Below are positions 14,556-29,522 of a stretch of 64,000 bases of DNA, in pieces (position 1 is the first letter of the stretch; the number at the start of each line of letters is the position of its first letter). Position numbers and translations under genes: made by a program. The notes under the pieces are model-generated. The model ran no database searches. It had not been told where the DNA came from and was given only the letters and a program-made list of their open reading frames with translations. Origin of the DNA: Sphingomonas kyeonggiensis (GTDB taxonomy: Bacteria > Pseudomonadota > Alphaproteobacteria > Sphingomonadales > Sphingomonadaceae); the NCBI RefSeq assembly GCF_014204495.1, contig NZ_JACHLN010000002.1, positions 806,001-870,000 of the forward strand, given 5' to 3'.

Positions 14556-15107
14556 CATTACCCTCCTGACGCTACGCGGACATGCAAACGCGTCCTCCGC
14601 GGCAAGCCGGGAAGACTGGGACGATCGTGGGGACCGCCCATCACACAGTTCGTTCGAGAGGCACTCGTGACATGGGTGAAACGTTCGATGTCCCGGTGCG
14701 GCACAAGGTGTTAACGCAATCTAAATCGACCGCGTTGAGACGCATTTACCCTACGTTTTTCAGGAAAAATCGCCCTATCGGGAGCCCGAGGACCGACACG
14801 ATCCGCGCGGTTCGCAAGCCCGGGCACTGGACGACCCTTCTCCTCCGAAGGGCCGTCCAGAGAATGCGGATCACCTCGATCCGCGACGATTCTGGGTCCG
14901 GCAATGCTCCGAATCGAGACGATGCGCGGCCGGCGAAAGTTCGGACGAAAATAAAGCGAATGATATCAGATCATTGATCTGTGTATTATCGATGTAATAC
15001 GCAATTACCGACATGTGGAAGACCACAAGTTCTACCTAACGGTTTGTTCACCATCCTTCTGAGCAAGGCGCGATGCCGAGAGTGTCGCGAACCAGAAGGG
15101 TGAGGAC
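14556..15107. other. Divergent intergenic region, autotransporter / fimbrial operon
   Basis: About 550 bases with no convincing gene; one 131-codon open frame has no ribosome site and arginine-rich shadow composition. The region is clearly more AT-rich than its flanks, especially 14700-14775 and 14940-15060. It must hold the promoters of the giant autotransporter (leftward) and of the fimbrial operon (rightward). Visible structure includes an inverted repeat TTTTTC-AG-GAAAAA at 14756-14769 and the dyad cluster at 14967-15008. Confidence 0.7.
14967..15008. promoter_or_regulatory. Cluster of three dyads upstream of the fimbrial operon
   Basis: Three inverted repeats lie head to tail: CAGATCA-T-TGATCTG at 14967-14981, GTATTA-N6-TAATAC at 14983-15000, and GTAAT-N5-ATTAC at 14994-15008. 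The last two overlap. They lie 100-140 bases before the first fimbrial start codon, a position suited to an activator or repressor. The identity of the regulator is inferred only from the nearby FixJ-like gene. Confidence 0.5.
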
Positions 15108-15710
15108 ATGCGCACAAGGACGCATCTGGCATTCGCGGTCTGCATGGGGTGGGTCTCCGCCGCCTCTGCCCAAACAACCGCATATTCCCCCGATTCGGGC
15201 CGCACGCCCAATCAGATCGTCCTGTCGATCCCGGTCACGGCCTCAGTCGGCGGCCGATGCGGCTTCGGCACGGGCGGCACGCCGAGCGGCTCCTACAACC
15301 AGAATGATTTCGACGTGAACGGGCTGCAGCACGACTTCGCCTTCGTGCTCGATTGCACCGGCCCTTCGCGCGTCGCGGTAGTGTCGCAAAATGGCGGCCT
15401 GCTCACCACGGGAACCGCGCCGACCGGCTATACCGTTCGCGCGCCCTATGATGTGAGCCTGCATCTCGTCGCCAATGGCGGCGGGACGACGGCGGACGCC
15501 ACCTGCGCCGCATCGACGCTGCCCACCGGCTCCACCTGCAGCTTCCTCGGCCCGGCAAGCACCGCGCAGGGGCTGCGCCTATCCGCCGCATCGACGCTGC
15601 AGGCAGGCTCGTACCTGCGCGTATCCGCCCCACCCTATGCCGGCGCATCGGCGCTGGTGAACGGTACCTATTCCGACGTCCTGACGGTGACGCTCAGCGC
15701 ATCGCCCTGA
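15108..15710 (+). CDS. SCPU-type (spore coat U) secreted fimbrial subunit
   Basis: 200 residues; ATG preceded by GTGAGGAC. The signal peptide ends near SAASAQTT. The mature part has the features of spore coat U / Csu-type pilin-like proteins: an N-terminal strand LSIPVTASVGGRCGF with the first Cys, a second Cys after LDCTGPS, GYTVRAPYDVSLHL in the centre, and a C-terminal donor-type strand GTYSDVLTVTLSASP. It opens the fimbrial cluster but is separated from the next gene by 120 bases, so it may be expressed separately or at a different level. Function as a fimbrial or tip-proximal subunit is inferred from the chaperone and usher downstream. Confidence 0.8.
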   Translation: MRTRTHLAFAVCMGWVSAASAQTTAYSPDSGRTPNQIVLSIPVTASVGGRCGFGTGGTPSGSYNQNDFDVNGLQHDFAFVLDCTGPSRVAVVSQNGGLLTTGTAPTGYTVRAPYDVSLHLVANGGGTTADATCAASTLPTGSTCSFLGPASTAQGLRLSAASTLQAGSYLRVSAPPYAGASALVNGTYSDVLTVTLSASP

Positions 15711-15830
15711 CGGCGACCTGCCGGTTCGGCCCGGCGGCCGGCGCCAGATACCCCGGGCTTCTACCCCAAGTGAAAAATGGCAGCCGCGCCGCTCCGGCCT
15801 GACCTGCCCGACTTCAAATAGGAGAGCATT

Positions 15831-16391
15831 ATGAAGAAGCTTCTGTTCACCGCCCTTCTCGCCGGTTCGGCGCTGGCGGCGGTCCCGGCAGCCGCGCAGA
15901 GCGTGTCGGGCAATGTCACGGTGACCGGCACGGTCGCCGCCAAATGCACTTCCGCGGGCGGCCTGAACGGCAGCATCAACCTGGGCGAACTCGCCGTTGC
16001 CGACGGCAAGGTCAATCCGACCTTCTCGGCGAATGTGGGTGGCCTGAGCCGGTCGTTCACGGTCACCTGCACGAGTGCCAATCCGCAGATCTCGGTGGAT
16101 GCCTCGGCCCTGGTCAACTCCGCGATCGTGACCCCGACCGCCGGCTATACCAACACGGTGCACTACACCGCGACGATGGTCGCCTCGAAAGCGGCCGGGG
16201 GCACGACCTCGGCGATCGACACCTCGAACGTCGCCGGCGCGACCACCGCGCTTGTCGGCGATCACCTGGCCAATGCGCCGAACAACATCGTCCTCACGGT
16301 CTCGAACGGCAACACCACCACCGCGACCGACATGCTGGAGGCCGGAAATTACTCGGGTGTGATCGCGCTCACCGTGAGCCCGTCCGCCTGA
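15831..16391 (+). CDS. Major pilin-like chaperone-usher subunit
   Basis: 186 residues; ATG preceded by TAGGAG. Signal peptide MKKLLFTALLAGSALAAVPA, cleavage near AAAQS. The mature protein starts with alternating strands VSGNVTVTGTVAAKC and ends with GNYSGVIALTVSPSA, the pattern of subunits that complete their Ig-like fold by donor-strand exchange. Two Cys (in VAAKCTS and TVTCTS) could form the conserved disulfide. High Ala/Thr/Val content and its early position in the operon suggest it is the main shaft subunit; this is inference. The strong ribosome site fits abundant expression. Confidence 0.78.
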   Translation: MKKLLFTALLAGSALAAVPAAAQSVSGNVTVTGTVAAKCTSAGGLNGSINLGELAVADGKVNPTFSANVGGLSRSFTVTCTSANPQISVDASALVNSAIVTPTAGYTNTVHYTATMVASKAAGGTTSAIDTSNVAGATTALVGDHLANAPNNIVLTVSNGNTTTATDMLEAGNYSGVIALTVSPSA

Positions 16392-16458
16392 CCCGTGCTG
16401 GGCGAGGGAGGCCGCCCCCTCTCCTCCCTCGTCCAGACATTTCTGCTGGAGAACGACC

Positions 16459-17010
16459 ATGCGCATCTCTTTCCTGCTCGCCGTTCCGGCCGCGCTGGTC
16501 GCGACTCCGGCGCTGGCGCAGTCGACTGGCACGGTGAACGTGAACGGATCCGTCGCCGATCGCTGCCTCTTCACCGTCCCCTCCGCGGTCATCGCGCTCG
16601 GGGAGATCTCGCAGAGCGGCACCGGCGCGGCTGCCGGCAGGCTCGACACCGCCCGCGTCGACAACCAGTTCCGCGATCTGGTCGGCTGGTGCAACGGCAC
16701 CGCGGCGACCATGACGGTCGAGGCGCAGCCGCTGCTCAACCTCGACTATGGCGGCCCCGCCATCTCCGGTTTCGACACCCGGGTCGACTATCTCGCCACG
16801 GCGGCGGCCAACAGCACCTCGACGACCGACAGTTCGCTGGCAGCGAGCCCGGGTCCGGGCGGCGCCGTCAATGTCGGGCTCTTCTCGGGCAACATCCGGG
16901 TGACGCTGTCCCAGTCCTCGACGCCGGGGAGCGGCCTGCTCGTCGCCGGCAATTATGGCGGCCAGGTGATCGTCACCCTCACGCCCAACTTCAGTGGCGG
17001 CGGAGACTGA
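16459..17010 (+). CDS. Pilin-like fimbrial subunit
   Basis: 183 residues; GGAGA precedes the ATG. Signal peptide ends at TPALAQS. Mature part begins TGTVNVNGSVADRCLF and ends AGNYGGQVIVTLTPNFSGG, the same layout as the preceding gene, with Cys residues in DRCLF and GWCNG. It sits 67 bases downstream of the putative major pilin and 40 bases before the next subunit gene, on the same strand, consistent with a single transcript. Probably a minor subunit or second shaft component; the individual role cannot be read from sequence. Confidence 0.75.
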   Translation: MRISFLLAVPAALVATPALAQSTGTVNVNGSVADRCLFTVPSAVIALGEISQSGTGAAAGRLDTARVDNQFRDLVGWCNGTAATMTVEAQPLLNLDYGGPAISGFDTRVDYLATAAANSTSTTDSSLAASPGPGGAVNVGLFSGNIRVTLSQSSTPGSGLLVAGNYGGQVIVTLTPNFSGGGD

Positions 17011-17050
17011 TCCCGCCAGGCACCTCACCCGACCGAATTGGGAGGCTAGC

Positions 17051-17614
17051 ATGAACAAGCATATGGTTTTCCGCGCTGCCCTGACCGCCTCGATGGTCAT
17101 CTGCGCGCCGGCATGGGCCCAGACCACGGGCACCACCTCCAGCGGTACGGTTACGGTGACCGGCACGGTACCCTCGCTCTGCTTCGGCGGGACGCTGACG
17201 GGCGGCAGTAACATCGATCTCGGCGTGCTCATCGACACGTCGACCGGATTGCTGCGCACCGACCTGCCGGCGCCGACCCGGACCCTGACCGGGGCGTTCT
17301 GCAGCACCCGCAGCGTGATCTCGGTCGAGGCGACGCCGCTATTGTCGCAGAACGCGACGGGCACGCCGCCGGCCGGCTTCTCGCGGACGGTGAACTACCG
17401 CGCCGCCGCCAGCGGCTGGACCCCGACATCCGCGGTCTTCACCACGGGCGCCGCCAGCAACCCGGCCGCCTCGCAGAACCGCGCCACCGCGTTCCAGAGC
17501 GACATCACCATCACGCTCGACAACTTCCTGACCGGCGGAGGCACCGGGCTGCGGCTCGTCTCCGATCCGCTGTATCGCGGCGCGGTCACGGTGACGCTGT
17601 CGGTGGCCGATTGA
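17051..17614 (+). CDS. Pilin-like fimbrial subunit
   Basis: 187 residues. ATG at 17051 follows GGAGG by five bases; an upstream in-frame extension starting at 16994 overlaps the previous gene and would bury the signal peptide, so it was not used. Signal peptide ends near PAWAQTT. The mature part begins SGTVTVTGTVPSLCFGG and ends YRGAVTVTLSVAD, with a second Cys in GAFCSTRS. This is a third paralogous donor-strand subunit in a row. Sequence similarity among the paralogs is limited to the terminal strands and Cys positions, so they are not recent duplicates. Confidence 0.75.
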   Translation: MNKHMVFRAALTASMVICAPAWAQTTGTTSSGTVTVTGTVPSLCFGGTLTGGSNIDLGVLIDTSTGLLRTDLPAPTRTLTGAFCSTRSVISVEATPLLSQNATGTPPAGFSRTVNYRAAASGWTPTSAVFTTGAASNPAASQNRATAFQSDITITLDNFLTGGGTGLRLVSDPLYRGAVTVTLSVAD

Positions 17615-17627
17615 GGGAGTGCACGAC

Positions 17628-18212
17628 ATGCGCAGCCACCCCTTGTTCGCGATCGCGGTCCTGCTCCCGTTCCCCGCCGTCGCGCAGACGATCAGCGAGG
17701 TCCGGGCAATGGACGTGACCGGCCAGGTGCCAGGCACCTGCACGCTCGGCGCTCCGCGGCTGGGTGGCGCCCAGGCCAATTTCCGCGGGATCAACGGCAA
17801 CAGCCTGCCGATCGATCAGCTGGTCGACGGGACGACATTGTCGACCCGCCCGGCATCGGCCGAGATCAGCTTCGACGCGGTCTGCGCGTTCCCGCACCTG
17901 CTGCGGGTGGAGAGCCAGAACAACGGGCTCTGGCGCACCAGCGAGCGGGTGGGCAACGCCCCGGAAGGGTTCGGCGACGCGGTCCCCTACCGCGCCACGC
18001 TCTACTGGGCATCGCAGACCCTCGCGTTGTTCGCCGATGCCCGGCTGCGCCGCATGGCCGAGACCAGCCTCTTCGTCAGCGAAACCGCGACCGGAACGCT
18101 GCAGCTCCGCCTCGAGATCGATGCCGGTGCCACCAATCACCGCGCAAACGCGCCGCTTGTCGCCGGCACCTATGGCGACACGCTGCGCATTACCCTGGAG
18201 CCGCAGCAATGA
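17628..18212 (+). CDS. SCPU-like fimbrial subunit
   Basis: 194 residues from ATG 17628, eight bases after GAGGGAG; a GTG at 17619 lies inside that ribosome site. Signal peptide MRSHPLFAIAVLLPFPAVAQ. Mature part contains MDVTGQVPGTCTLG, AVCAFPHLLRVESQNNGL and the C-terminal strand GTYGDTLRITLEPQQ. The central NNGLWRT and VPYRATLYW segments resemble the following gene (GNGGLRRD, LPYRLGVRW), so the two form a subfamily distinct from the three preceding pilins. Its stop overlaps the next start (ATGA), indicating coupling and probably a fixed ratio. Confidence 0.75.
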   Translation: MRSHPLFAIAVLLPFPAVAQTISEVRAMDVTGQVPGTCTLGAPRLGGAQANFRGINGNSLPIDQLVDGTTLSTRPASAEISFDAVCAFPHLLRVESQNNGLWRTSERVGNAPEGFGDAVPYRATLYWASQTLALFADARLRRMAETSLFVSETATGTLQLRLEIDAGATNHRANAPLVAGTYGDTLRITLEPQQ

Positions 18213-18775
18213 AGAGGATCCTGATCCCCGTCGCGCTGGCAATGCTTCCGGCAGCCGCCCTGGCCCAGAACCAGCCGCAGCCGGTCACCGGCCACCTCGA
18301 CATCATCGGTGAAGCGCCGGCCGCCTGCCTGATGAAATCGCCCGCGGGCACCAGCGGCACCAATGCCAGCTTCGATCCGGTGTCGTCCGGTACCGGCCGC
18401 ATCCGGATCGACCAGCTGGCGAGCCTGAACGATGCGACGCCCCTGGCGGCGGCGATCCGGGTCGAGCTGCCGGTCATCTGCAACGCGCCCCATCGCATCG
18501 TGCTGCGCAGCGGCAATGGCGGACTGCGGCGGGACGGCGCGGCGGTGGCGAGCGTCGCCCCCTTCCGCCAGCTGCTGCCCTATCGGCTGGGTGTCCGCTG
18601 GGGCGCCGACCAGGCCGAGCGCGGCACCGATGACGGCACGCCGATCACCATCGACGCAAGTAGCGCCCGCTCGGGCGACCTTGCGGTCCTTTTCACCCTC
18701 GCCAGCGGCGGCGCCCCCCTCGTGGCGGGCAACTACACCGACGAGATCGTCCTGGAGATCCAGGTCGCCGACTGA
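18209..18775 (+). CDS. SCPU-like fimbrial subunit
   Basis: 188 residues; ATGA overlap with the preceding gene and GGAG upstream. Signal peptide ends at AALAQNQ. Contains GHLDIIGEAPAACLM, PVICNAPHRIVLRSGNGGL and a final strand GNYTDEIVLEIQVAD. The paired Cys and the NGGL/YRLGVRW segment match the preceding subunit. Likely a minor or adaptor subunit; assignment to SCPU rests on architecture and gene order. Confidence 0.75.
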   Translation: MKRILIPVALAMLPAAALAQNQPQPVTGHLDIIGEAPAACLMKSPAGTSGTNASFDPVSSGTGRIRIDQLASLNDATPLAAAIRVELPVICNAPHRIVLRSGNGGLRRDGAAVASVAPFRQLLPYRLGVRWGADQAERGTDDGTPITIDASSARSGDLAVLFTLASGGAPLVAGNYTDEIVLEIQVAD

Positions 18776-18805
18776 CGCACCCCACGCATACCGGGAGGAA
18801 AACAG

Positions 18806-19564
18806 ATGAAGAAATGGGTCCGTGGTCTCGCTCTTGGTCCGGCACTGGCCGCCGCCATGCTCGCGAGCAGTCCGCTGGTACAGGCGGAAACGGTGCAACC
18901 GGTCGTCGTCGACCTGACGCCCACCGGCAGCGGAATGAGCCAGACGATCACGGTGGAGAACACCTTCACCCAGCCGCTTCCGGTGGAGCTGCGCGTCGAG
19001 GAACTCACCTTCGACCAGGCCGGGCTTCACGGCACCGGCAAGGACTCCGGCGACCTGCTGATCTTCCCGCCCCAGGCGATCATCCAGCCCGGCCAGACCC
19101 AGTCCTTCCGCGTGCAATATATCGGCGACCCCGCCCTTGCCCGCAGCAAGCACTATTACGTCACCGTCGCCCAGCTGCCGGTGCAGCTGCCCCAGGGCCA
19201 GTCCGCCATCCAGATCCTGTACAACTTCCAGGTGCTGGTGAGCGTGAAGCCGGCCGGCGCCAAGCCCGAACTCAAGATCGCCAAGAGCGAAGTCGCGCTC
19301 GACGAAAAGGGGCAGGCGATCGCCGCGATCACCCTGACCAACGACAGCCCCGCCCATGGCTATCTCTCCAAGGGCCGGCTGCGGATCGTCGAGCGCGATC
19401 GCAGCGGCAAGGAAGTGTTCCGTCGCACGCTCGCCGGGCCCGAGATCCAGCAGACCGTAGGCTTCGGCCTGGTCGGCGCGGGTCAGACCCGCCGGCTGCT
19501 CATCCCCATCCAGCTCCCCACCAGTGAAGGCACGATCGATGCCCAATTCACGCCCGAGGGCTAG
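18806..19564 (+). CDS. PapD-like periplasmic fimbrial chaperone
   Basis: 252 residues; GGGAGG upstream of ATG. Signal peptide ends at PLVQAET. Two Ig-like domains: the first (about 30-150) has TITVENTFTQPLPVELRVEE, the FPPQAIIQPGQTQSFRVQY motif of the chaperone G1/F1 region and ALARSKHYYVTVAQLPV; the second (about 160-250) is shorter. It captures subunits in the periplasm by donor-strand complementation and delivers them to the usher. It lies between the last subunit and the usher, overlapping the latter by 26 bases. Family is secure; the relaxed motif fits the Csu/SCPU-type branch rather than classical FGS chaperones. Confidence 0.92.
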   Translation: MKKWVRGLALGPALAAAMLASSPLVQAETVQPVVVDLTPTGSGMSQTITVENTFTQPLPVELRVEELTFDQAGLHGTGKDSGDLLIFPPQAIIQPGQTQSFRVQYIGDPALARSKHYYVTVAQLPVQLPQGQSAIQILYNFQVLVSVKPAGAKPELKIAKSEVALDEKGQAIAAITLTNDSPAHGYLSKGRLRIVERDRSGKEVFRRTLAGPEIQQTVGFGLVGAGQTRRLLIPIQLPTSEGTIDAQFTPEG

Positions 19565-22097
19565 GCGCCCCCTGCGCTGGTTCGCCATCGTCCTGATGGC
19601 GGGCTGCGCGCCCATCATCCTCTCACCGGCGGCCCACGCCAATGAGGATGGGCCCAAACAGACCAGCCAGGAGCAGGAGCGCCACATCGTCCTGCCCAAG
19701 CCCGCGACCAGCGGCGAGCCGCAAGCCCGGATCAACACGACGGGCAAGGCGATAACGCTGACGGTCGCCGCCAAGGACGGCCCGGTCTATCTTGGTGACA
19801 TCGTCGTCACCATCCAGCCGGATGACTCGATCGAGTTCTCGTCGCGGCGGCTGATGGACCTGCTTTCCAACGTGCTCGACCCCGACGTGCTGCGCAATCT
19901 GCAGGCGAGCTTCGCAGGCAAGACCGCGCTGGGGCCGGACGCGTTCCAGGCATCCGGTATCCAGATCCGCTACGATCCGCAGCAGCTGGCGATCGCGCTG
20001 GACATCGCCAGCGAGCGTCGCGCCACGCGCACCGTGATGGTGAGCCCGCTGGATCGCGATCGGATCGGCACCTATGTCAAACCCGCCGAATTCAGCGCCT
20101 ATCTCAATATCCGCGGCAACGTGGATTATCTGTGGAGCGGCCCGGACAAGGGCGTGCAATCGCCGGTGCTGTTCCTGGACGGCGCAATGCGGGCGCTCGG
20201 CGCCGTGCTCGAGAGCCAGGCCGTCTGGCAGCCGGGCAGCAACGCCACCGACTTCCAGCGGCTCGGTACCCGCCTCGTCTATGACGATCCCAAGCGGCTG
20301 GTCCGCTGGACGCTGGGCGACCTGCAGCCGGTCACGCGCGGCTTCCAGTCGGTCCCCGATATCGCCGGCCTGTCGGTCTTCCGCTCGTACAGCGTGCTGC
20401 AACCGCAGGAGATCGTCCGTCCGCGCGGCGATCGCAGCTTCCAGCTCACCCGCCCGTCGACCGTCGAAGTCTATGTCAACGGCGAGCTCGTCCGGCGGCT
20501 CCAGCTCGCCCCGGGTACCTATAACCTGCGCGACTTCCCGTTCACCCAGGGCGCGAACGACGTGCGCCTGTCGATCCTCGACGATGCCGGGCGCAGCGAG
20601 ATCCTGCGGTTCAACGTCTTCCTCGACCAGTCGCAACTGGCATCGGGCCTGAGCGAGTTCGGCCTGTATGCGGGCGTGATGGCGCCGCTCGAGGCGCACG
20701 GCCCCAACTACACCAGCAAGCCCGCGGTCTCCGCCTTCTTCCGGCACGGCATGAGCGACGCGCTCACCCTTGGAGCCAATATCCAGGCGGACAGCCGGGT
20801 TGTGATGGGCGGCGTCGAGGCGGTGTGGGGCACGAAGCTCGGCACCTTCTCCGGCAGCCTCTCGCTGTCGCAGATCGACGGCATCGGCCACGGCCGCGCC
20901 GCGCTGGCAACCTTCCAGCGGCTGATCCAGCGTCCCAATGGCCGCTCGGACTCGATCACGCTCTTCTTCGAAAGCCGCAGCAGGAATTTCGGGCCGATCG
21001 GCACGGTGATCCCGCGCAACCCCTTCAGCTGGGAAGCAGGCGGCGGTTATTCGCACACCTTCACCGACTATCTCTACGGCGGCATCGACGGGCGGTACTC
21101 CCGCGGACGCGACAGCCAGCGCGACCTGTACACGGCGCGCGCCACCATGGGCTGGCGGATCAATGATCGCCTGACCCTGACCGGCGACCTGCGCTACGAG
21201 CGCGACAATGTCCGCAAGGGGCTGGGCGGACTGCTCAGCCTGACCCTGCGCCTCGGCCGCTATTCCAACTTCCGTGCCGACTATGACACGCGGACCGAAC
21301 GGGCACGCCTGTCGTACAACATGATGCACGGCCAGGGCGTCGGCTCCTATAACATCGCGGCCGATATCGAGCGCGACAGGAATGGTGCGGGCGTCAGCGT
21401 CGCCGGCAATTATGTGGGCAACCGCGCCGATCTCGGCTTCAGCCATTTCGGCACGTTCGACGACGATTTCGGCCGCTCCACCGGGCAGCGGACTTCGTTC
21501 CGCTTCGGCACCGCGATCGCGCTCGCCGACGGCGCGCTCACCATCGGCCGGCCGATCTATGACAGCTTCGCGGTGGTCAAGGGCCATGAGAGCCTGAAGG
21601 GCGCCAATATCCGCGTCGATCCGACCGAGTTCGGCTACACCGCCTCGACCGGCGCGCTCGGCACCGCCCTGCAACCGAGCCTCAGCTCCTATGCGGAGCG
21701 CACGGTCAAGATCGACTCGCCGAACGCACCCGCCGGATATGATCTTGGCCAGGGCGCCTATCGCCTCTTCCCGCCCTATCGCAGCGGATATCGGCTGGAA
21801 GTCGGCTCGGGCTACAACCTGACGGCAATGGGCCGGATGACCGATCGCAACGGCGATCCCGTTTCGCTGGTCACCGGCAAGGCAACCGAGCTGGCGCATC
21901 CGGAACGCGAGCCCGTGGTGGTGTTCACCAACCGGGAGGGACGCTTCGCCGCCACCGGCCTCGCCGCCGGGCGCTGGCGGATCGACATGCTCGACACCGA
22001 AAAGAGCAGCTACGTCATTGATATTGCGGAGAAGGCCGAAGGCGTAGTCCGCCTTGGCGAGCTCACGCCTGCAGCTAAGGACGGAACCAAGCCATGA
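19539..22097 (+). CDS. Outer-membrane fimbrial usher (FimD/PapC family)
   Basis: 852 residues from ATG 19539; GTG 19524 is an in-frame alternative. The start lies inside the chaperone gene. A basic N-terminus and hydrophobic segment (WFAIVLMAGCAPIILSP) serve as signal. An N-terminal periplasmic domain (about 60-150) is followed by a long barrel with strands such as FRADYDTRTERARLSYNMMH and the plug-side region VEVYVNGELVRRLQLAPGTY. The C-terminus has GYNLTAMGRMTDRNGDPV and FTNREGRFAATGLAAGRW, typical usher C-terminal domains. It is the secretion pore and assembly platform for the pilus and ends with a 4-base overlap into the tip-protein gene. Confidence 0.93.
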   Translation: MPNSRPRARRPLRWFAIVLMAGCAPIILSPAAHANEDGPKQTSQEQERHIVLPKPATSGEPQARINTTGKAITLTVAAKDGPVYLGDIVVTIQPDDSIEFSSRRLMDLLSNVLDPDVLRNLQASFAGKTALGPDAFQASGIQIRYDPQQLAIALDIASERRATRTVMVSPLDRDRIGTYVKPAEFSAYLNIRGNVDYLWSGPDKGVQSPVLFLDGAMRALGAVLESQAVWQPGSNATDFQRLGTRLVYDDPKRLVRWTLGDLQPVTRGFQSVPDIAGLSVFRSYSVLQPQEIVRPRGDRSFQLTRPSTVEVYVNGELVRRLQLAPGTYNLRDFPFTQGANDVRLSILDDAGRSEILRFNVFLDQSQLASGLSEFGLYAGVMAPLEAHGPNYTSKPAVSAFFRHGMSDALTLGANIQADSRVVMGGVEAVWGTKLGTFSGSLSLSQIDGIGHGRAALATFQRLIQRPNGRSDSITLFFESRSRNFGPIGTVIPRNPFSWEAGGGYSHTFTDYLYGGIDGRYSRGRDSQRDLYTARATMGWRINDRLTLTGDLRYERDNVRKGLGGLLSLTLRLGRYSNFRADYDTRTERARLSYNMMHGQGVGSYNIAADIERDRNGAGVSVAGNYVGNRADLGFSHFGTFDDDFGRSTGQRTSFRFGTAIALADGALTIGRPIYDSFAVVKGHESLKGANIRVDPTEFGYTASTGALGTALQPSLSSYAERTVKIDSPNAPAGYDLGQGAYRLFPPYRSGYRLEVGSGYNLTAMGRMTDRNGDPVSLVTGKATELAHPEREPVVVFTNREGRFAATGLAAGRWRIDMLDTEKSSYVIDIAEKAEGVVRLGELTPAAKDGTKP

Positions 22098-23101
22098 GCA
22101 AGAAGATACCGCTGCTCGCAGCTATCTGCGGCGTCCTGAGCGTCGCCGGGGCCGCGCCAGCCTGGGCGCAGGGCAAGGGAACCTGCGGTGTGTCCGGCCA
22201 GGCACTGGCCTCGCCGACAATCACCTATGACCCCTTCTCGCCCACCGGGCTGACCCAGGTGACGATCCCGCTGATCCTGACCCGCTTCGGAACCGGCGCG
22301 GCGAAGACCCAGACGGTCAACTTCGTGCTGACCAAGCCGGTGGGCACCCCCAACTACCAGATCCTCTACAATGGCACGAGCATCCTCTACACAGAGGGCA
22401 ACACCATGGGGCACCCGACGATCAACTCGCAGTCGGCGGGTGAGATCAACTACAATTTCGGTGGCGCCTCGCAGCCCGACCAGTCGACGCCGTTCAACCT
22501 GGTCGTCACGGTGCCGGCGAATGTCGATCTGTCGGCTGGACTGCCGATCGACTTCGACATCCTCTATGTCTGCAACGGCACCGGCGGCATGGCGGATGTG
22601 GTCACGCCGACCAAGCTGTCGAGCGCGATCCATATCAACGTCAATGTGCTGAGTGCGCTGCAGGCAAGCTACGCGGGCCCCGCGCTCGATTTCGGGGAAG
22701 TCGGAGACAAGACCGATGCCGATGTGACGAGCACGCCGATCATCCGCACCGGCTATGTCCGGGTCGCAAGTTCGGGTCCCTATTCCATCGATGTCACATC
22801 GCAGAATGGGTATCGGCTGACCTTCCCGGGCGGCAACCCGGCGAATGCGACCCAGTCGATGGGATATTCGGCGACCTTTGTCGGGCAGACGCGCAACCCG
22901 TCCAATACGACCCCGATCACGCGGACCTGCACCCGCGCCGGCCTGGCCGGATCGCCGCCGAACCAGGGCATTCTGCTGCCGGTCGATGTACGCCTGCTGC
23001 AAGGGGGGCAGACGCGAACGCCCGCCCCCAATTATCAGGACATATTGACCGTCACCATCTCCCCGCTGGCCGCGGGTACGCCGGGAACGATCTGCTCCTG
23101 A
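22094..23101 (+). CDS. Two-domain SCPU-type tip/adhesin-like subunit
   Basis: 335 residues; ATGA overlap with the usher. Signal peptide ends at APAWAQGK. The length is nearly twice that of the other subunits: an N-terminal domain (about 26-190, with Cys in GTCGVSG and LYVCNGTG) and a C-terminal pilin-like domain (about 195-335) ending YQDILTVTISPLAAGTPG plus a terminal Cys. In chaperone-usher systems a two-domain subunit encoded last is commonly the tip adhesin, so I infer that role here. The stop codon lies within a hairpin (23099-23120) that closes the operon. Confidence 0.78.
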   Translation: MSKKIPLLAAICGVLSVAGAAPAWAQGKGTCGVSGQALASPTITYDPFSPTGLTQVTIPLILTRFGTGAAKTQTVNFVLTKPVGTPNYQILYNGTSILYTEGNTMGHPTINSQSAGEINYNFGGASQPDQSTPFNLVVTVPANVDLSAGLPIDFDILYVCNGTGGMADVVTPTKLSSAIHINVNVLSALQASYAGPALDFGEVGDKTDADVTSTPIIRTGYVRVASSGPYSIDVTSQNGYRLTFPGGNPANATQSMGYSATFVGQTRNPSNTTPITRTCTRAGLAGSPPNQGILLPVDVRLLQGGQTRTPAPNYQDILTVTISPLAAGTPGTICS

Positions 23102-23120
23102 TCCAGCCTGGGCTGGATCA
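23099..23120. terminator. Hairpin between convergent fimbrial and SCPU genes
   Basis: Perfect 9-bp stem TGATCCAGC / GCTGGATCA with loop CTGG. The left arm starts with the TGA stop of the tip gene, and the right arm ends just after the end of the convergent gene. There is no T-run, so it would act as a bidirectional stem or a factor-assisted terminator. Confidence 0.55.
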
Positions 23121-23561
23121 GAGCGCCGTGACGCGGATCGACAGCGTGCCGTTGGCCTGACCGTTCTCGGTGACCAGCGACACCTTGTGCGCCGCGATGC
23201 CCGGCTGCGCGGCACCCGAGATGACCGTCGAACCGGCGTCCGAGAGGCGCACGGCATTGCCGTCGATCATCAGGGTCGCGCCAGCCAGCTCGGGCGAGTG
23301 ATCGACCGTCACCTGATAGCCATTCGCGCTGTTGCAGAATTCGTGCAGCGTGCCGAGATCGACCTGGTTGCCGTTCGACGCCGCAACCGAGTTGTCGAGG
23401 TTCGCGCGGCAGACCACCGGCACATAGCCGCTGACCGTCAGCCGGTAGCCGTCCTGCGACGGATCGGCAAAGGCCGCCGGCGTCGCCGCGATCAGTGCGC
23501 CGAAAGCGGCCGCTGCGCCAACCCGGCGCACGAAGGAAGAAACGCTGTTGTTGTACTGCAT
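23118..23561 (-). CDS. Lone SCPU/pilin-like secreted protein
   Basis: 147 residues from ATG 23561, with GGGAG about nine bases upstream; a TTG at 23597 is in frame but has no ribosome site. Signal peptide ends at TPAAFADPS. The mature part begins GYRLTVSGYVPVVCRANLD and ends GQANGTLSIRVTAL, with a second Cys in HEFCNSANGYQVTV, matching the donor-strand subunit pattern. It is transcribed toward the fimbrial operon and lies between that operon and the FixJ-like regulator, so it may be an accessory subunit of the same pilus. No chaperone of its own is present. Confidence 0.72.
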   Translation of the reverse strand: MQYNNSVSSFVRRVGAAAAFGALIAATPAAFADPSQDGYRLTVSGYVPVVCRANLDNSVAASNGNQVDLGTLHEFCNSANGYQVTVDHSPELAGATLMIDGNAVRLSDAGSTVISGAAQPGIAAHKVSLVTENGQANGTLSIRVTAL

Positions 23562-23631
23562 GTTGAAGAACTCCCGCCAGAACGGTTCTTTCTTCAACGA
23601 AAGCGGTTGATGTCCGGTTAAACCCGGCCTC

Positions 23632-23666
23632 CGTAACCCGACGCATCGGGTGCGTAACGGCGTAAT
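23632..23666. promoter_or_regulatory. Repeated CGTAA(C/T) motif and hairpin upstream of lone SCPU gene
   Basis: CGTAAC at 23632 and 23653 (21 bp apart, two helical turns) and CGTAAT at 23661. ACCCGA-CGCA-TCGGGT (23636-23651) forms a stem between the first two. The cluster lies 70-105 bases upstream of the SCPU start and just after the stop of the FixJ-like gene. It could be a regulator site, a terminator, or both. Confidence 0.45.
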
Positions 23667-23699
23667 TCTGCGGGTTTCGGGAGGAGTGTGGCTGGATTG

Positions 23700-24347
23700 C
23701 TACGCTCTCGGCGCCACGGAAAGCACTGGCCGCCCCTGGCCCATTCCGGCCGCGAAGGCAATGCGCAACGCTTCGGACAGGCTGCGCGCATGCAGCTTGG
23801 CCATGATGTTGGCGCGGTGCACCTCGACGGTGCGGCAGCTTATGCCGAGGTCGAACGCGATCGTCTTGTTGGGCAGCCCCTGCGCCAGCCGCTCGAGCAC
23901 CTCGCGCTCGCGGCAGCTCAGGATACCGAGCACCACGCCGGCCTCGGCGACCCGGGCACTGATGTCCTTGCCTGCCGTGATCCGGTCGAAAGCCCGGCCG
24001 ATCGCGTCCAGAAGCGCATCGGTGTCGAAGGGCTTCTCGAGGAAATCGACTGCGCCCGCCTTCATCGCCTTCACCGCAACCGACACGTCGCCATGGCCGG
24101 TCAGCACGATGACAGGCATCGTCACGCCGCGCGCGCCGAGCTGCTGCTGCACCTCGATGCCGTCCATTTCAGGCATGCGGATATCAAGCAGGATGCAGCC
24201 GGGCTCCACGTGGCGAACCTCTTTCAGGAAGGCGATGCCGGACGACCATACGCGAACCGCATAGCCGGAGGCGCTCAGGAAGAACTTGGCGCCGCGGCGC
24301 ACGCTTTCTTCGTCATCGATGACATGGACCAACGGTTTGTCGCTCAT
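23700..24347 (-). CDS. FixJ-like response regulator (REC + LuxR/GerE HTH)
   Basis: 215 residues. Receiver domain (about 1-125) has the acidic pair D11-D12, phospho-acceptor D55 in LLDIRMPEMDG, T83 and K105 in FLEKPF. The C-terminal GerE-type helix-turn-helix (about 140-205) has LSCREREVLERLAQGLPNK and CRTVEVHRANIMAKL. The start overlaps the kinase stop by four bases (ATGA), so this is its cognate partner. It should bind DNA after phosphorylation; candidate targets are the neighbouring SCPU gene and the fimbrial operon. The target assignment is inference from position. Confidence 0.93.
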   Translation of the reverse strand: MSDKPLVHVIDDEESVRRGAKFFLSASGYAVRVWSSGIAFLKEVRHVEPGCILLDIRMPEMDGIEVQQQLGARGVTMPVIVLTGHGDVSVAVKAMKAGAVDFLEKPFDTDALLDAIGRAFDRITAGKDISARVAEAGVVLGILSCREREVLERLAQGLPNKTIAFDLGISCRTVEVHRANIMAKLHARSLSEALRIAFAAGMGQGRPVLSVAPRA

Positions 24348-26218
24348 TCCAGAGACTCCGCATCGGCATGAACAAGGGTGAAATGAAAACGGGCGCCGTC
24401 GCCGCTGTCCGGCTCCAGCCAGATGCGTCCGCCATTGGCTTCGACGATCGTCCGGCAGATCGACAGCCCCAGCCCCATTCCACTGCTCTTGGTGCTGTGG
24501 AAGGCGCGGAACAGATTCTCGGCGATCCCCGGCGGAACCCCGGGTCCGGTATCGGCGACGCTGACGCGGACAAAGCCGGGATCGTCGGGCGCGGTCGATA
24601 TGGTAAGCGAGCGCCGGGGCGCCCCGATCATCGCCTCGATGGCATTGCGCATGAGATTGATCAGAACCTGCTGGATCTGGATGCGGTCGACGAGGACGCT
24701 GTCCACCGACAGGTCCAGCCGGAAGCTCGCCTCCACGCCCCTTTCTCGCGCGCCGATCAGCGCCAGCTCGGAAGCGTCCTCGACCAGCGCGGAAAGCGCC
24801 TCGATCGACTTCTCGACCTCACCGCGCGCCACGAACTCGCGCAGCCGCCGTACGATGCTGCCGGCCCGAAGCGCTTCCTCGAACGCTTCGTCCAGGCCCT
24901 CCTCGATCGTCTCCCGGTCCTCGGCATTGCCGTCACGCAGCATGTTCCGGGCACCGCGCACGAAGGTGACCACGGCGGTTATCGGCTGGTTCAATTCATG
25001 GGCCAGCGTGGATGCCATGGTACCCATCGCGCTCACGCGTGCGGCATGGACCAGCTCGGAACGCAGCGCCTCGATCCGCTCCTCGTCCGCAACCTTCTCG
25101 GTAAGGTCGCGGATGAAGCCGATGAAGACGCGGCCGCCCTCGGACGTGGCCTCGCCGACCGACAGGTCCATCGGGAAGGTCGTACCGTCGTGGCGCTGCC
25201 CCAGCACGATCCCGCCGACCCCGATCATCCGGGCCTCGCCCGTCTCGAGATATCGCCGAAGATAGTCGTCGTGCCGATCGCGGTCCGGGGCCGGCATCAG
25301 CCGGCTGACATTGGAACCGACGACATCGGCCTCGCACACGCCGAACAGTTTCTCCGCCGCGGCGCTGAACGACAGGATCTTGCCCGTCTCGTTGATCACC
25401 ACCATCGCATCGGGCACCGCCGCCAGGATGGAGCGGAACTGCGCCGCGCTCGCCTGGAGATGCCGTTCCGCCGCGCGTTGCTCGGTCACGTCGCGAACGA
25501 CCTTGGCAAAGCCCCGCAGCGCGCCTTGCTCGTCATAGAGCGGCGTAAGCATGGTGTGGGCAAGGAACTCCGAGCCGTTCTTGCGAACGCACCAGTCTTC
25601 CTCCTCCAGGCACCCCTCGGCGCGGGCGCGATCGAGGTCATGCTGCGGCTTGTCGAGCGCCAGCGCCGTGTCGGGATAGAAGATCGAACAGTGCCTGCCG
25701 ACGACTTCGCGCTCGCTCCAACCCTTCAGCCGTTCGGCCGCCTTGTTCCAGATCGTTATCCGCCCATCCGGATCGAGCATGTAGATGCCATATCCCTCGG
25801 CACCGTCGATCAGCAGGTTCAGCGTCTCCGCCAGATCATGCGCGCGATTTGCCCGGCGTTCCGCCACCTGCTCGCTGGCGCGCAACCGCCATTGCAGGCG
25901 CATGATATAGGATACGACGAGGATGATGACCGAGCAGGCGAACAGGAAGACGACTCGCTCGAGAATGGCGGCCTCGCCGCTTGCCCAGCCCATCAGGGCA
26001 ACCGCCGCCACCGATGCGAGGGCGGCTGCCAAGGCGGGCCCTGAGCCGGCAAAGGCCCCGGTGACGAGCACCGCCACCGCATAGAGCAGATAATGTCCGT
26101 GACCGCTCAGCCAGGGCTCGAGGGCCCAGCGCAGAAGCGTGGCGACTACGACCGAGCCTACCGCCAGACCATAGGCGGCAGCGAGGTCGCGCGCCGATGT
26201 GCGTGGGGCACCGGCCAC
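24344..26218 (-). CDS. FixL-like membrane sensor histidine kinase with two PAS domains
   Basis: 624 residues. The N-terminal 110 residues hold four hydrophobic segments (DUF4118/MASE-like). PAS1 spans about 133-245 and PAS2 about 256-375, followed by HisKA with H407 (TLAHELNQPI) and HATPase with N-box N525, DTGPG 556-560 and GMGLGL 580-585. PAS2 aligns by eye with the haem PAS of rhizobial FixL: H316 in DRHDDYLRRY matches the haem-ligand His200, and R322 matches Arg206. The distal Arg220 position is G336 (IGVGGIV). It therefore may bind haem with altered ligand sensing, or may be a non-haem relative. It forms an overlapping operon with the FixJ-like regulator. Confidence 0.92.
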   Translation of the reverse strand: MAGAPRTSARDLAAAYGLAVGSVVVATLLRWALEPWLSGHGHYLLYAVAVLVTGAFAGSGPALAAALASVAAVALMGWASGEAAILERVVFLFACSVIILVVSYIMRLQWRLRASEQVAERRANRAHDLAETLNLLIDGAEGYGIYMLDPDGRITIWNKAAERLKGWSEREVVGRHCSIFYPDTALALDKPQHDLDRARAEGCLEEEDWCVRKNGSEFLAHTMLTPLYDEQGALRGFAKVVRDVTEQRAAERHLQASAAQFRSILAAVPDAMVVINETGKILSFSAAAEKLFGVCEADVVGSNVSRLMPAPDRDRHDDYLRRYLETGEARMIGVGGIVLGQRHDGTTFPMDLSVGEATSEGGRVFIGFIRDLTEKVADEERIEALRSELVHAARVSAMGTMASTLAHELNQPITAVVTFVRGARNMLRDGNAEDRETIEEGLDEAFEEALRAGSIVRRLREFVARGEVEKSIEALSALVEDASELALIGARERGVEASFRLDLSVDSVLVDRIQIQQVLINLMRNAIEAMIGAPRRSLTISTAPDDPGFVRVSVADTGPGVPPGIAENLFRAFHSTKSSGMGLGLSICRTIVEANGGRIWLEPDSGDGARFHFTLVHADAESLE

Positions 26219-26315
26219 CGCAATCTCCGCCGCTGAAGCACCCGAGCCACACCCGATAGTGGGTTCCCTCGTTCAGCGGGTCGGATGTCGATAGCACGAA
26301 AGAAATTGGTCGGAA

Positions 26316-26331
26316 ATGGTTTGGAAACCAT
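26316..26331. promoter_or_regulatory. Dyad upstream of the sensor kinase
   Basis: ATGGTTT-GG-AAACCAT, perfect 7-bp arms, about 100 bases upstream of the kinase start, in the 159-base gap after the single-domain receiver gene. It could be an operator or a terminator of the upstream gene; no T-run follows on the minus strand. Confidence 0.4.
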
Positions 26332-26377
26332 CCGGACACACCAAATCGCGCGACCGATGCCGCGAAATGGGACGCAG

Positions 26378-26767
26378 TTAGACTATCGGCTCGGCGACTC
26401 GGGCTAGTTCCTCGAGCAGTACGTCATCGCGAAACGGCTTGGGCAGCACTTCGACGAAACCGGCGGAGATCGCTTCGCTTCGCAGGCTTTCGGAAAAATG
26501 CGCGGTGATCAGCACCGCAACGCCGTCCCAGCCCCTCTCCTGGAGCGTGCGGAGGGATTCGATACCGTCACAGTAGGGCATCGAATAATCGACCACGAGA
26601 TGTGTTGCCTCGACCGATACGGGATCGGCGAGCGCGGCGGCGGCGCTGGCGAAGGCGATGACCTGATATCCCGCGCCCTGGAGCATGAGCTGCAGCCCCC
26701 GGCGCACCGAGGCATCATCCTCGATCAGGAGCAGCGGCGGCATGTTCTTCTTCCGCGACGACGTCAT
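26378..26767 (-). CDS. Single-domain response regulator
   Basis: 129 residues, or 121 from the internal Met9 (26743), which has a purine-rich GGAAGAAG upstream; the choice is open. It is a receiver domain only: acidic D17-D18, phospho-acceptor D60 in LVVDYSMPYCDG, T93 in VLITAHF and a Lys in LPKPF. No output domain follows. Such CheY/FixT-like proteins act as phosphate sinks, or as intermediates or inhibitors of a kinase. It lies upstream of the FixL-like kinase on the same strand, separated by 159 bases, so a role in that pathway is likely but inferred. Confidence 0.88.
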   Translation of the reverse strand: MTSSRKKNMPPLLLIEDDASVRRGLQLMLQGAGYQVIAFASAAAALADPVSVEATHLVVDYSMPYCDGIESLRTLQERGWDGVAVLITAHFSESLRSEAISAGFVEVLPKPFRDDVLLEELARVAEPIV

Positions 26768-27101: not shown

Positions 27102-27926
27102 ATGCCCACGCCCAACAGCATAGCCGCTGACAAGCTGTCACGCCTGATCGGCACCGCCGCCGCCCCAATGCTCCTCGACCTGCGCGAGGATCGCGGCACC
27201 ACGCTGATACCCGCCTCCCTCCCCGTCCCCGCCGGCGCGATCGGAGAATGGACCGCCCGCCTGACCGGCCGCGCCGCAATCATCATCGACGAGGACGGCA
27301 CGCGCACCGCGCCCGGCCTGGCCGCCTGGCTGCGCAGCGACGGGATCGATGCCGAAATCCTGGAGGGCGGTTTCGCCGCCTGGCAGGCCGCCACCCTGCC
27401 CCTGCTCGCGACCGAGCGGCTCCCGGGGCGCGACGCCCAGGGCCGGACGCTCTGGGTCACCCGCGCGCGGCCCAAGGTCGACCGCATCGCCTGCCCCTGG
27501 CTGATCCGGCGCTTCGTCGACCCCGCCGCACGCTTCCTGTTCGTCGCCCCCGGCGACGTGATCGAGACCGCCCGGCGCTTCGACGCCGCCGCCTTCGACG
27601 TGGCGCATGACGACGTGTTCTGGAGCCATCGCGGCGAGCGCTGCACCTTCGACCTGATGGTCGAGACCTTCGGCCTCACGGCCTTCCCCGCACTCGAACA
27701 TCTGGCGACGATCGTGCGCGGCGCCGACACCGCCCGGCCCGACATCGTGCCCGAGGCAGCCGGCCTGCTCGCCCTCTCGCTTGGCCTCTCCCGCGTCCAT
27801 GCCGACGACCTGGAGCAGCTCGAGGCCGGCATGCCGATCTACGACGCGCTCTACCGCTGGTGCCGCGACGCGCGATCGGAAACGCACGACTGGACCTCGC
27901 ACAAGCCGCGCGCGGTGCAGGCATGA
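27102..27926 (+). CDS. chrB: ChrB-type chromate resistance protein with rhodanese-like domain
   Basis: 274 residues. N-terminal rhodanese-like fold (about 10-105) with LLDLRED and the C-terminal rhodanese signature ILEGGFAAW, but the active-site loop reads DEDGTRTAPG with no Cys, so sulfurtransferase activity is unlikely. The C-terminal ChrB domain (about 118-265) has LWVTRARPKVDRIACPWLI, FDVAHDDVFWSHRGERCTFD and GLSRVHADD. ChrB proteins are linked to chromate-dependent control or enhancement of ChrA. It overlaps chrA by four bases (ATGA). This domain arrangement is recurrent next to chrA in proteobacteria. Confidence 0.88.
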   Translation: MPTPNSIAADKLSRLIGTAAAPMLLDLREDRGTTLIPASLPVPAGAIGEWTARLTGRAAIIIDEDGTRTAPGLAAWLRSDGIDAEILEGGFAAWQAATLPLLATERLPGRDAQGRTLWVTRARPKVDRIACPWLIRRFVDPAARFLFVAPGDVIETARRFDAAAFDVAHDDVFWSHRGERCTFDLMVETFGLTAFPALEHLATIVRGADTARPDIVPEAAGLLALSLGLSRVHADDLEQLEAGMPIYDALYRWCRDARSETHDWTSHKPRAVQA

Positions 27927-29323
27927 GCGCGGCGGCTCTCGACGGGGCCGCAGCCCCGGCCCGACCTGCTCCCGTCACGCTTGGTCAGGCCTTCTGGGTG
28001 TGGCTGCGGATCGCAGCGCTCTCCTTTGGCGGACCGGCCGGGCAGATCGCGGTGATGCACCGCATCCTGGTCGAGGAGAAACGCTGGATCGGCGAGCAGC
28101 GATTTCTGCACGCGCTCAACTATTGCATGCTGCTGCCCGGCCCCGAGGCGCAGCAGCTCGCCACCTATATCGGCTGGCTGCTGCACAAGACGAAGGGCGG
28201 CGTGATCGCCGGCACGCTTTTCGTGCTGCCGGGCATGGTCTCGATCATGGCGCTGAGCTGGATCTATGTCCTGTACGGCAAGCTCGGCTTCGTCGCGGCG
28301 CTGTTCTTCGGATTGAAGGCCGCAGTGCTGGCGGTGGTGCTCCAGGCGGTCGTCCGGATCGGCGGACGGGCGCTGCGCAGCGGCGCGTCACGGGCGCTGG
28401 CGGCCGCCGCCTTCGTCCTGATCTTCTTCCTGGGCGTGCCCTTCCCGCTCATCATCCTCGCCGCCGGCCTGATCGGCTGGTGGACCGGGCGCAGCGGTTC
28501 GAATGCGTTCAAGGGCGGCGGGCATGGCGGGCCGAAAGGAGGTGCCGTGGTCGCGGATGCCGATACCCTGCTGGGCGAGGAACTGCCGGCACACGCCCAT
28601 GCCTCGTGGCGCGAAACGTCGCGAACGGTGGTGACCTGCCTGCTGCTATGGCTGGTGCCGGTCGCCGCGCTGGTGCTGCTGCTCGGGCCGACCAACACCT
28701 TCTCCAGCATCGCGATCTTCTTCTCGAAGATGGCGGTGGCAACGTTCGGCGGCGCCTATGCGGTGCTCGCCTATGTCGCGCAGCAGGCAGTGGAGGAATA
28801 TCACTGGCTCACCCCGGGCGAGATGCTCGACGGGCTCGGCATGGCCGAGACCACGCCGGGGCCGCTGATCATGGTGCTGCAGTTCGTCGGCTTCCTCGGC
28901 GCCTATCGCACACCGGGCATGCTCTCTCCGCTGCTCGCCGGCACGCTGGGCGGGCTGCTCGCGACCTGGGTGACCTTCCTGCCCTGCTTCCTGTGGATCT
29001 TCCTGGGGGCGCCCTATATCGAGCGGCTGCGCGGCAACGCGGCCGTATCGGGCGCGCTTTCGGCGATCACGGCGGCGGTGGTGGGCGTGGTGCTCAACCT
29101 TGCCATCTGGTTCGCGATCCACACGCTGTTCCGCCAGACGCTGCCGGTCGAGCTTGGGCCGATCCGCTTCGCCGCACCCGTGGCCGCGAGCATCGATCTG
29201 TGGGCGCTGGTGCTGGCCGGTGCGGCGATCGTGGCGGTGTTCGTGCTGCGGGCCGGCGTCATCGTGACGCTGGCGGCTACATCGGCGGCGGGCATCGCGC
29301 TGCACCTGCTCGGGCTGCTCTGA
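27923..29323 (+). CDS. chrA: Chromate efflux transporter ChrA
   Basis: 466 residues from the ATG overlapping the chrB stop; an upstream in-frame start inside chrB was rejected. It is a two-domain CHR-family carrier. The N-terminal half has LRIAALSFGGPAGQIAVMHR and LNYCMLLPGPEAQQLATYIG; the C-terminal half repeats the plan with MAVATFGGAYAVLAYV and MAETTPGPLIMVLQFVG. About ten to twelve hydrophobic segments are visible, with a hydrophilic Gly-rich linker (about 190-235) between the halves. It exports chromate from the cytoplasm using the proton gradient. A strong hairpin follows at 29417. Confidence 0.95.
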   Translation: MSAAALDGAAAPARPAPVTLGQAFWVWLRIAALSFGGPAGQIAVMHRILVEEKRWIGEQRFLHALNYCMLLPGPEAQQLATYIGWLLHKTKGGVIAGTLFVLPGMVSIMALSWIYVLYGKLGFVAALFFGLKAAVLAVVLQAVVRIGGRALRSGASRALAAAAFVLIFFLGVPFPLIILAAGLIGWWTGRSGSNAFKGGGHGGPKGGAVVADADTLLGEELPAHAHASWRETSRTVVTCLLLWLVPVAALVLLLGPTNTFSSIAIFFSKMAVATFGGAYAVLAYVAQQAVEEYHWLTPGEMLDGLGMAETTPGPLIMVLQFVGFLGAYRTPGMLSPLLAGTLGGLLATWVTFLPCFLWIFLGAPYIERLRGNAAVSGALSAITAAVVGVVLNLAIWFAIHTLFRQTLPVELGPIRFAAPVAASIDLWALVLAGAAIVAVFVLRAGVIVTLAATSAAGIALHLLGLL

Positions 29324-29448: not shown

Positions 29449-29522
29449 CCTCGACTCACCCCCATATGGCGTATTGACTCCTGTTCGCCGTGGGTAATGG
29501 CTCCCTGAAAGGGGGAATTTTC

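Follow-up and report, generated by a model that had tools for sequence, protein, structure and literature searches.

A FixLJ-Derived Two-Component System with an Altered Heme Pocket beside a Putative Archaic Chaperone–Usher Pilus Cluster in Sphingomonas kyeonggiensis

Organization of the Pilus and FixLJ Locus

We analyzed a 64,000-nucleotide stretch of Sphingomonas kyeonggiensis DNA (contig NZ_JACHLN010000002.1, positions 806,001 to 870,000; hereafter the window), part of a Sphingomonas-type genome of 4.96 Mb, in which a putative pilus operon faces the genes of a FixL–FixJ-like two-component system. Nine genes in the same direction (15108–23101, + strand) encode six putative pilus subunits followed by a PapD-type chaperone, the usher, and a tip protein, and converge on a short lone gene (23118–23597, −). 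Past the lone gene, the minus strand carries a FixJ-like response regulator with a receiver and a LuxR-type DNA-binding domain (23700–24347), then a FixL-like histidine kinase with a DUF4118 membrane part, a PAS domain, a heme-PAS domain, and a HisKA/HATPase core (24344–26218), and finally a single-domain receiver (26378–26767), which Pfam recognizes and which also stands beside FixL–FixJ in most related loci. An earlier sequence-only reading had placed the kinase, regulator, and receiver on one strand and the lone gene between FixJ and the converging operon. Open reading frames together with Pfam and NCBIfam matches confirm the first arrangement, and the lone gene lies where that reading had put it.

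The subunit genes S1 (15108–15710), S2 (15831–16391), S3 (16459–17010), S4 (16994–17614), S5 (17619–18212), and S6 (18209–18775) are open reading frames with orthologues in relatives. They are followed by genes for the periplasmic chaperone (18806–19564; PapD_N, 33.4 bits against a cutoff of 23), the outer-membrane usher (19524–22097; Usher PF00577, 30.7 bits against a cutoff of 27.1; 78 named relatives), and a two-domain protein at the operon end that is likely a CsuE-type tip adhesin (22094–23101). This order of subunits, PapD-like chaperone, usher, and two-domain tip is that of an archaic Csu-type chaperone–usher pilus. At E ≤ 0.001, Pfam matched neither the tip nor the lone gene nor any of the six subunits, and the SCPU model found no match in the window's own genome or in any of 14 control genomes searched alike; with the controls blank too, that SCPU search carries no information. 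The operon had been described as SCPU-type from its sequence; its chaperone and usher, which pass their Pfam cutoffs, uphold the operon, and the SCPU label has no library match. Because no subunit matched Pfam, that name rests on context, with indirect support from gene order and the tip model.

In its AlphaFold model (mean predicted local distance difference test score 84), the tip protein has two beta parts. VIA-align superimposes the second domain on the Acinetobacter baumannii Csu major subunit CsuA/B (6fm5) with Z 8.2 and a root-mean-square deviation (rmsd) of 3.0 over 117 residues; a Z of about 8 is near the level reached by common folds. CsuE (6fjy) is also among the top VIA-align rows for the tip model, with Z 8.2 but an rmsd of 11.6. 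Foldseek ranks an integrin first, followed by CfaB/CfaE and other pilus proteins, and a profile of the tip sequence matched no chain in the PDB. Judged from gene order and the tip model, an archaic Csu-type chaperone–usher cluster is the best reading of the operon. It resembles the A. baumannii Csu pilus in the order of its genes and in the alignment of its tip model with CsuA/B, and it differs in having six subunit genes, a convergent pilin-like gene, no subunit match in Pfam, and no tip match in the PDB. Where the tip and lone genes converge, a predicted hairpin covers both stop codons (23099–23120; the fold of 23085–23135 has −24.1 kcal/mol, z −3.1), and no terminator with a T-run was found at this junction.

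Heme Pocket of the Pilus-Linked FixL

Mutational work has addressed R220 of FixL, a textbook sensor of oxygen. The likeness of the window pair to FixL/FixJ, already seen in the sequence-only reading, holds up: Pfam, NCBIfam scores, and trees support a FixLJ-derived origin. The regulator falls just short of the NCBIfam FixJ model (245.4 bits, cutoff 255) and retains the acceptor Asp, the switch Thr, and the Lys; the kinase does not pass the FixL model, which is that of rhizobial FixL (510.2 bits, cutoff 850). With the FixL–FixJ of Bradyrhizobium and Sinorhizobium, the pair shares the domain order, the heme-ligand His, the kinase core, and a FixJ-type regulator. It differs from them in two pocket residues (Gly for Arg and Met for Ile), in its pilus neighbors, and in its genomic setting, as the model of ccoN (cbb3 oxidase) found no match in the window's own genome. 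A Crp-type helix–turn–helix model found 10 matches there, five of them above the cutoff.

The heme-PAS domain (FixL residues 255–385; 25064–25456, −) aligns over its whole length with the heme domain of Bradyrhizobium FixL (BjFixL). The proximal heme-ligand His is kept (H316, codon 25271–25273, aligned with BjFixL H200), and heme binding itself is predicted. The O2-contacting Arg is absent, the position of BjFixL R220 being occupied by Gly336 (codon 25211–25213). The distal Ile (I215 in BjFixL, I209 in the Sinorhizobium protein SmFixL) is likewise replaced, by Met331 (codon 25226–25228). To place these residues among relatives, we compared 94 distinct related PAS sequences from all loci examined, counting identical ones once and leaving out six without the His. 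Of the remaining 88, 85 have Arg at the R220 position, and three have Gly, namely, the window sequence and those of two S. kyeonggiensis genomes; a smaller earlier set of 74 gave 71 and three. Met at the I215 position is found in these three FixLs and in one other, from Parerythrobacter lutipelagi (L213). At that locus, an independent FixLJ-type pair (2.5–4.3 kb) is oriented divergently to a same-class pilus cluster, and the heme-PAS of this pair keeps the Arg. Of the columns in FixL residues 255–620 that show 90% or higher conservation among 21 relatives from the same clade, four (298, 336, 351, and 366) are changed and fixed in the linked three; position 336 is that of the Arg. The window's own genome also encodes other FixL-like kinases that bear the Arg (L101, L102, and L110).

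In BjFixL, the hydrogen bond that R220 makes with O2 is reported to drive the conformational change (PMC10765370, citing Balland et al.), and SmFixL I209M bound carbon monoxide (CO) and had a much lower O2 affinity (PMC10765370). With Gly in place of the R220-equivalent Arg and Met in place of the distal Ile, classical oxygen sensing by the fimbria-linked FixL is unlikely, and FixL-type sensing of oxygen, which had been suggested as one possible signal, becomes improbable. A switch that is oxygen-insensitive, or responsive to nitric oxide (NO), CO, or redox state, appears likelier from these residues; the kinase probably either responds to a different signal or is always active. We infer this joint effect of the Arg-to-Gly and Ile-to-Met changes.

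A true oxygen switch, with the pilus made when oxygen falls and the pocket change producing a low-affinity sensor for higher oxygen, is an improbable alternative. The heme ligand is kept and the domain is closely related to that of BjFixL, and Burkholderia FixLJ responds to low oxygen and affects biofilm (PMC5234846). Set against this are the replacement of both residues reported as important for O2 binding (PMC10765370) and the finding that deletion of fixLJ in B. dolosa gave more biofilm, not less (PMC5234846).

Even less probable, in our judgment, is decay of the heme domain, with the membrane part or the first PAS domain now driving the kinase. The loss of a residue that 85 of the 88 sequences retain would fit such decay. 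Against it, the ratio of nonsynonymous to synonymous substitution rates (dN/dS) among the three linked fixL copies is 0.125–0.185, which indicates purifying selection; there are no broken frames, and the heme ligand and nearly all conserved positions within residues 255–620 are kept.

Descent and Linkage of the FixLJ System

Searches of 295 genus genomes found FixL and the usher side by side in three, the window genome and the S. kyeonggiensis genomes DSM 101806 and DS2008 (G102 and G128; loci L063 and L064). Close FixLs and close ushers, defined as matches at E ≤ 1e-190, occur in 41 and 20 of the genomes, respectively, and together in 10. Linkage was judged from contig coordinates, and breaks in draft assemblies may hide cases: in G075, no more than about 4 kb separates either FixL or the usher from a contig end. 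Some of the loci discussed below also end at contig ends (e.g., L108 and L193), where misses are not proof of absence.

Examination of 20 relatives' FixL loci, 20 kb each (L063–L082), revealed a full FixJ beside FixL in 19 and a separate receiver beside the FixL–FixJ pair in 18 (not in L074 and L080). The exception to the former is L067 (in genome G064), where FixJ is cut to about its first 48 codons (8856–8998) and the kinase seems to have lost its partner. Only L063 and L064 among these loci contain an usher and a lone gene; in the other 18, the FixLJ set is apart from the pilus. Conversely, this FixJ appears in two of the 78 named usher loci.

Stand-alone FixLJ sets are often near some of Usp, BON-domain, flavodoxin-fold, cation-ATPase, and acyl-CoA-ligase genes, several of which occur together in L065, L066, L068, L070, L072, L078, L079, and L080. 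This neighborhood looks like a low-oxygen or stress island. The acyl-CoA ligase of these loci was matched in all three stand-alone genomes tested and had no match at E ≤ 1e-50 in any of the three fimbria-linked genomes.

A 77-row tree groups the three linked FixLs in a single clade (100/100) nested among the Arg-bearing FixLs, with a stand-alone FixL as their sister (95/64). The linked FixJs show the same nesting within the FixJ clade, and their recognition helix, RTVEVHRAN, is identical to that of the stand-alone FixJs. As far as alignments can tell, the input of FixL has changed, and the DNA-reading part of FixJ has not.

Two-Component Pairs at Usher Loci

Adjacent pairs of a histidine kinase and a LuxR-type regulator are present at 9 of 28 same-genus usher loci versus 1 of 43 random 20-kb stretches (p = 0.0007; the controls are 44 random regions minus L166, which overlaps L165). 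Counting a syntenic clade once leaves 7 of 26 (p = 0.004). These counts support the conclusion that two-component pairs at ushers are commoner than by chance in the genus, and the regulators near ushers come from several lineages.

A close FixL is also found in 10 of the 20 genomes with a close usher versus 31 of the 275 others (p = 6e-5, uncorrected for kinship and genome size). A first set gave co-occurrence of FixL and the pilus in 7 of 10 genomes. One co-occurring genome, G064, has only the truncated FixJ described above, and both traits look scattered on a gyrB tree (a single gene, with 28 of the 30 genomes searched). We keep the co-occurrence of FixL and pilus in trans as a correlation only.

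A second usher class, with the order subunit–tip–subunit–chaperone–usher, occurs in seven Sphingopyxis and Sphingomonas loci (L200, L201, L206, L209, L212, L214, and L215). In all seven, a gene for a LuxR-type regulator immediately precedes the operon, and a kinase and receiver-like gene stand at one operon end. For a two-component system built into a pilus locus, this class makes a stronger case than the window does.

The Convergent Short Gene

In 60 of the 78 named loci and in 9 of the 28 same-genus usher loci, the usher/tip end faces a convergent homologue of the lone gene. By title, the named-locus records come from Sphingomonas, Novosphingobium, Sphingopyxis, Caulobacter, Brevundimonas, and others, and we take the orders that host the family to be Sphingomonadales and Caulobacterales. 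The sequence-only reading had treated the gene as a link between FixJ and the fimbriae. It accompanies the pilus cluster without FixLJ, and because it is convergent there in the absence of that pair, gene order assigns it to the pilus cluster and not to FixLJ. This short pilin-like family at the ends of archaic pilus operons is conserved (e.g., L175, L181, L202, and L235).

An alignment of the window gene with 40 of the 60 named homologues contains five invariant columns (two Cys, an Asn, a Gly, and a Tyr). None of the 41 members scanned has a Pfam match, and the family profile matched no PDB sequence. In the predicted model of the window protein, the beta core is confident and the N-terminal third is poorly modeled. 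Foldseek returned no row at E ≤ 0.001 for this model; VIA-align gave weak matches, with an RTX-like domain best and pilin domains (PapG, FimH, FimG, and CsuE) mixed with unrelated Ig-like folds. Judged by eye, the ATG at 23561 is the likelier start. We infer that the gene encodes a pilus subunit, perhaps a separately controlled one. The gene is a conserved companion of these pili for which Pfam gave no family.

Regions Upstream of the Pilus Genes

The region upstream of S1 (14967–15107) includes a hairpin (14967–14981), the dyad GTAAT-N5-ATTAC (14994–15008), and a block kept in three genomes. GTAAT/CGTAA motifs before the operon and before the lone gene had been put forward from the window sequence. 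The dyad, with a single occurrence in the 184 kb examined of the window's own genome, and a GTAA-N2-GCGTA site at 23654 do exist there. Neither is conserved: both S. kyeonggiensis genomes lack the left arm of the dyad, and the 23654 site is not kept in either. The GTAA core that is kept at each promoter in the three genomes is merely a four-base match.

Published FixJ sites differ, and their consensus is unsettled (PMC4999443). We searched the window for three published sequences. GTAMGTAG was not found in it, nor was TAAGTAATTTCCCTTA with up to three mismatches. GTAGTTTCCC has one occurrence, with one mismatch, inside S6; 0.8 occurrences are expected, so this is at chance level.

Two other candidates were rejected. 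When the conserved columns upstream of S1 were compared with those upstream of the lone gene, the best local match, CCAGAA.GGT, fell at the ribosome-binding-site area of S1 and was not a GTA site (0 of 200 column shuffles were as good). A dyad comparison of 180 upstream regions from FixLJ loci with 384 controls gave a best p of 3e-6, which we judged not to survive correction for multiple dyads.

Possible Control of the Pilus by FixLJ

In the sequence of events that we propose, a stand-alone, membrane-bound FixL–FixJ with its single receiver came, within the S. kyeonggiensis lineage, to adjoin the archaic Csu-type pilus cluster. The branch that leads to the linked copies saw the heme pocket change (Arg to Gly and Ile to Met) at two places that hold and select O2, while the heme ligand, the kinase core, the FixJ phosphorylation site, and the DNA-reading helix of FixJ stayed. 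The kinase may still bind heme but no longer shut off in air; it would be on by default, or it would answer NO, CO, the redox state of the heme, or a signal to its membrane part. Phosphorylated FixJ would then activate the pilus operon and might do the same for the lone pilin gene, with the single receiver tuning the flow of phosphate.

Two known systems offer precedents. BfmSR, whose regulator belongs to the NarL/FixJ family, activates the csu operon of Burkholderia thailandensis (PMC12124856), and PprAB activates cupE in Pseudomonas aeruginosa (PMC10104325). The window has in common with BfmSR–csuFABCDE a kinase and NarL/FixJ-family regulator within an archaic pilus subregion, with promoter activation demonstrated in the Burkholderia case (PMC12124856). 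The two differ in that BfmS is a hybrid kinase with a receiver and a predicted HPt, whereas the window has a kinase, a regulator, and a separate receiver; the available text on BfmS mentions no heme-PAS, which the window kinase has (PMC12124856). PprA–PprB and cupE offer a two-component system demonstrated to activate an archaic biofilm pilus, and the accessible part of that paper does not call PprAB a FixLJ (PMC10104325). Our search, outside of which most subscription journals lay, found no report of FixLJ beside fimbrial genes in Sphingomonas.

Control of this pilus by FixLJ is plausible. An altered FixLJ that stands beside the pilus and controls its operon is the likeliest single reading of the locus, at somewhat under an even chance. 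Close behind comes the possibility, to which we give appreciable weight, that FixLJ merely moved beside the pilus and runs its old regulon elsewhere, the pocket change altering that regulon. The isolation of FixLJ in 18 of the 20 mapped loci, the unchanged FixJ recognition helix, the lack of a FixJ-type or shared promoter site among those searched for, and the restriction of linkage to one clade all favor such a bystander. The excess of two-component pairs at usher loci, the co-occurrence of FixL and this pilus even when unlinked, and the placement of linkage and pocket change on the same branch speak against it.

Several further results weigh against control of the pilus by this pair. None of the three published FixJ sequences, whose consensus is itself unsettled, was found at the pilus promoters, and no FixJ-like element is common to the S1 and lone-gene upstream regions. 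The unchanged helix of FixJ would fit its old targets equally. Linkage of this same two-component system with pilus genes is not conserved, being limited to 3 of the 295 genus genomes and 2 of the 78 named loci; this is a single event in a single clade and may therefore reflect chance rearrangement. A close usher is absent from 31 of the 41 genomes with a close FixL, and other usher classes show no co-occurrence with FixL (2 of 16 versus 20 of 135). A LuxR-type regulator lies within the stretch in only 10 of the 60 named loci that have the convergent lone gene, and an adjacent pair is present in 12 of the 78 named loci, a set without controls. Lack of conservation beside SCPU operons, which the sequence-only reading had named as grounds against a dedicated fimbrial switch, is thus largely borne out for this particular pair. 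For the dedicated fimbrial switch suggested by the sequence-only reading, the excess of two-component pairs and the BfmSR and PprAB precedents remain in favor, but this pair adjoins the pilus in just the three genomes.

A fuller version of pilus control by the altered FixLJ is more doubtful and is offered tentatively. According to this version, loss of the Arg, in step with the move to the pilus locus, turned FixL into a sensor of another ligand or of redox state or into a default-on kinase, and FixJ now drives the pilus and the short pilin. If this is true, a heme sensor would be tied directly to adhesion, and the natural loss of the R220 equivalent, with Arg-bearing FixL-like kinases of the same genome as internal controls, would allow a test of how heme sensors change ligand.

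Neighboring Genes

Two very large autotransporter-like open reading frames flank the region, one at 3663–14558 (−; 3631 aa) and one at 29490–39539 (+; 3349 aa). Between the receiver gene and the second of these, the window contains ChrB-domain and chromate-transporter genes (27102–29323), for which the searched S. kyeonggiensis stretches gave no match. In G128, a 76% relative of the C-terminus of the 29490–39539 reading frame lies some 12 kb away from the same block.

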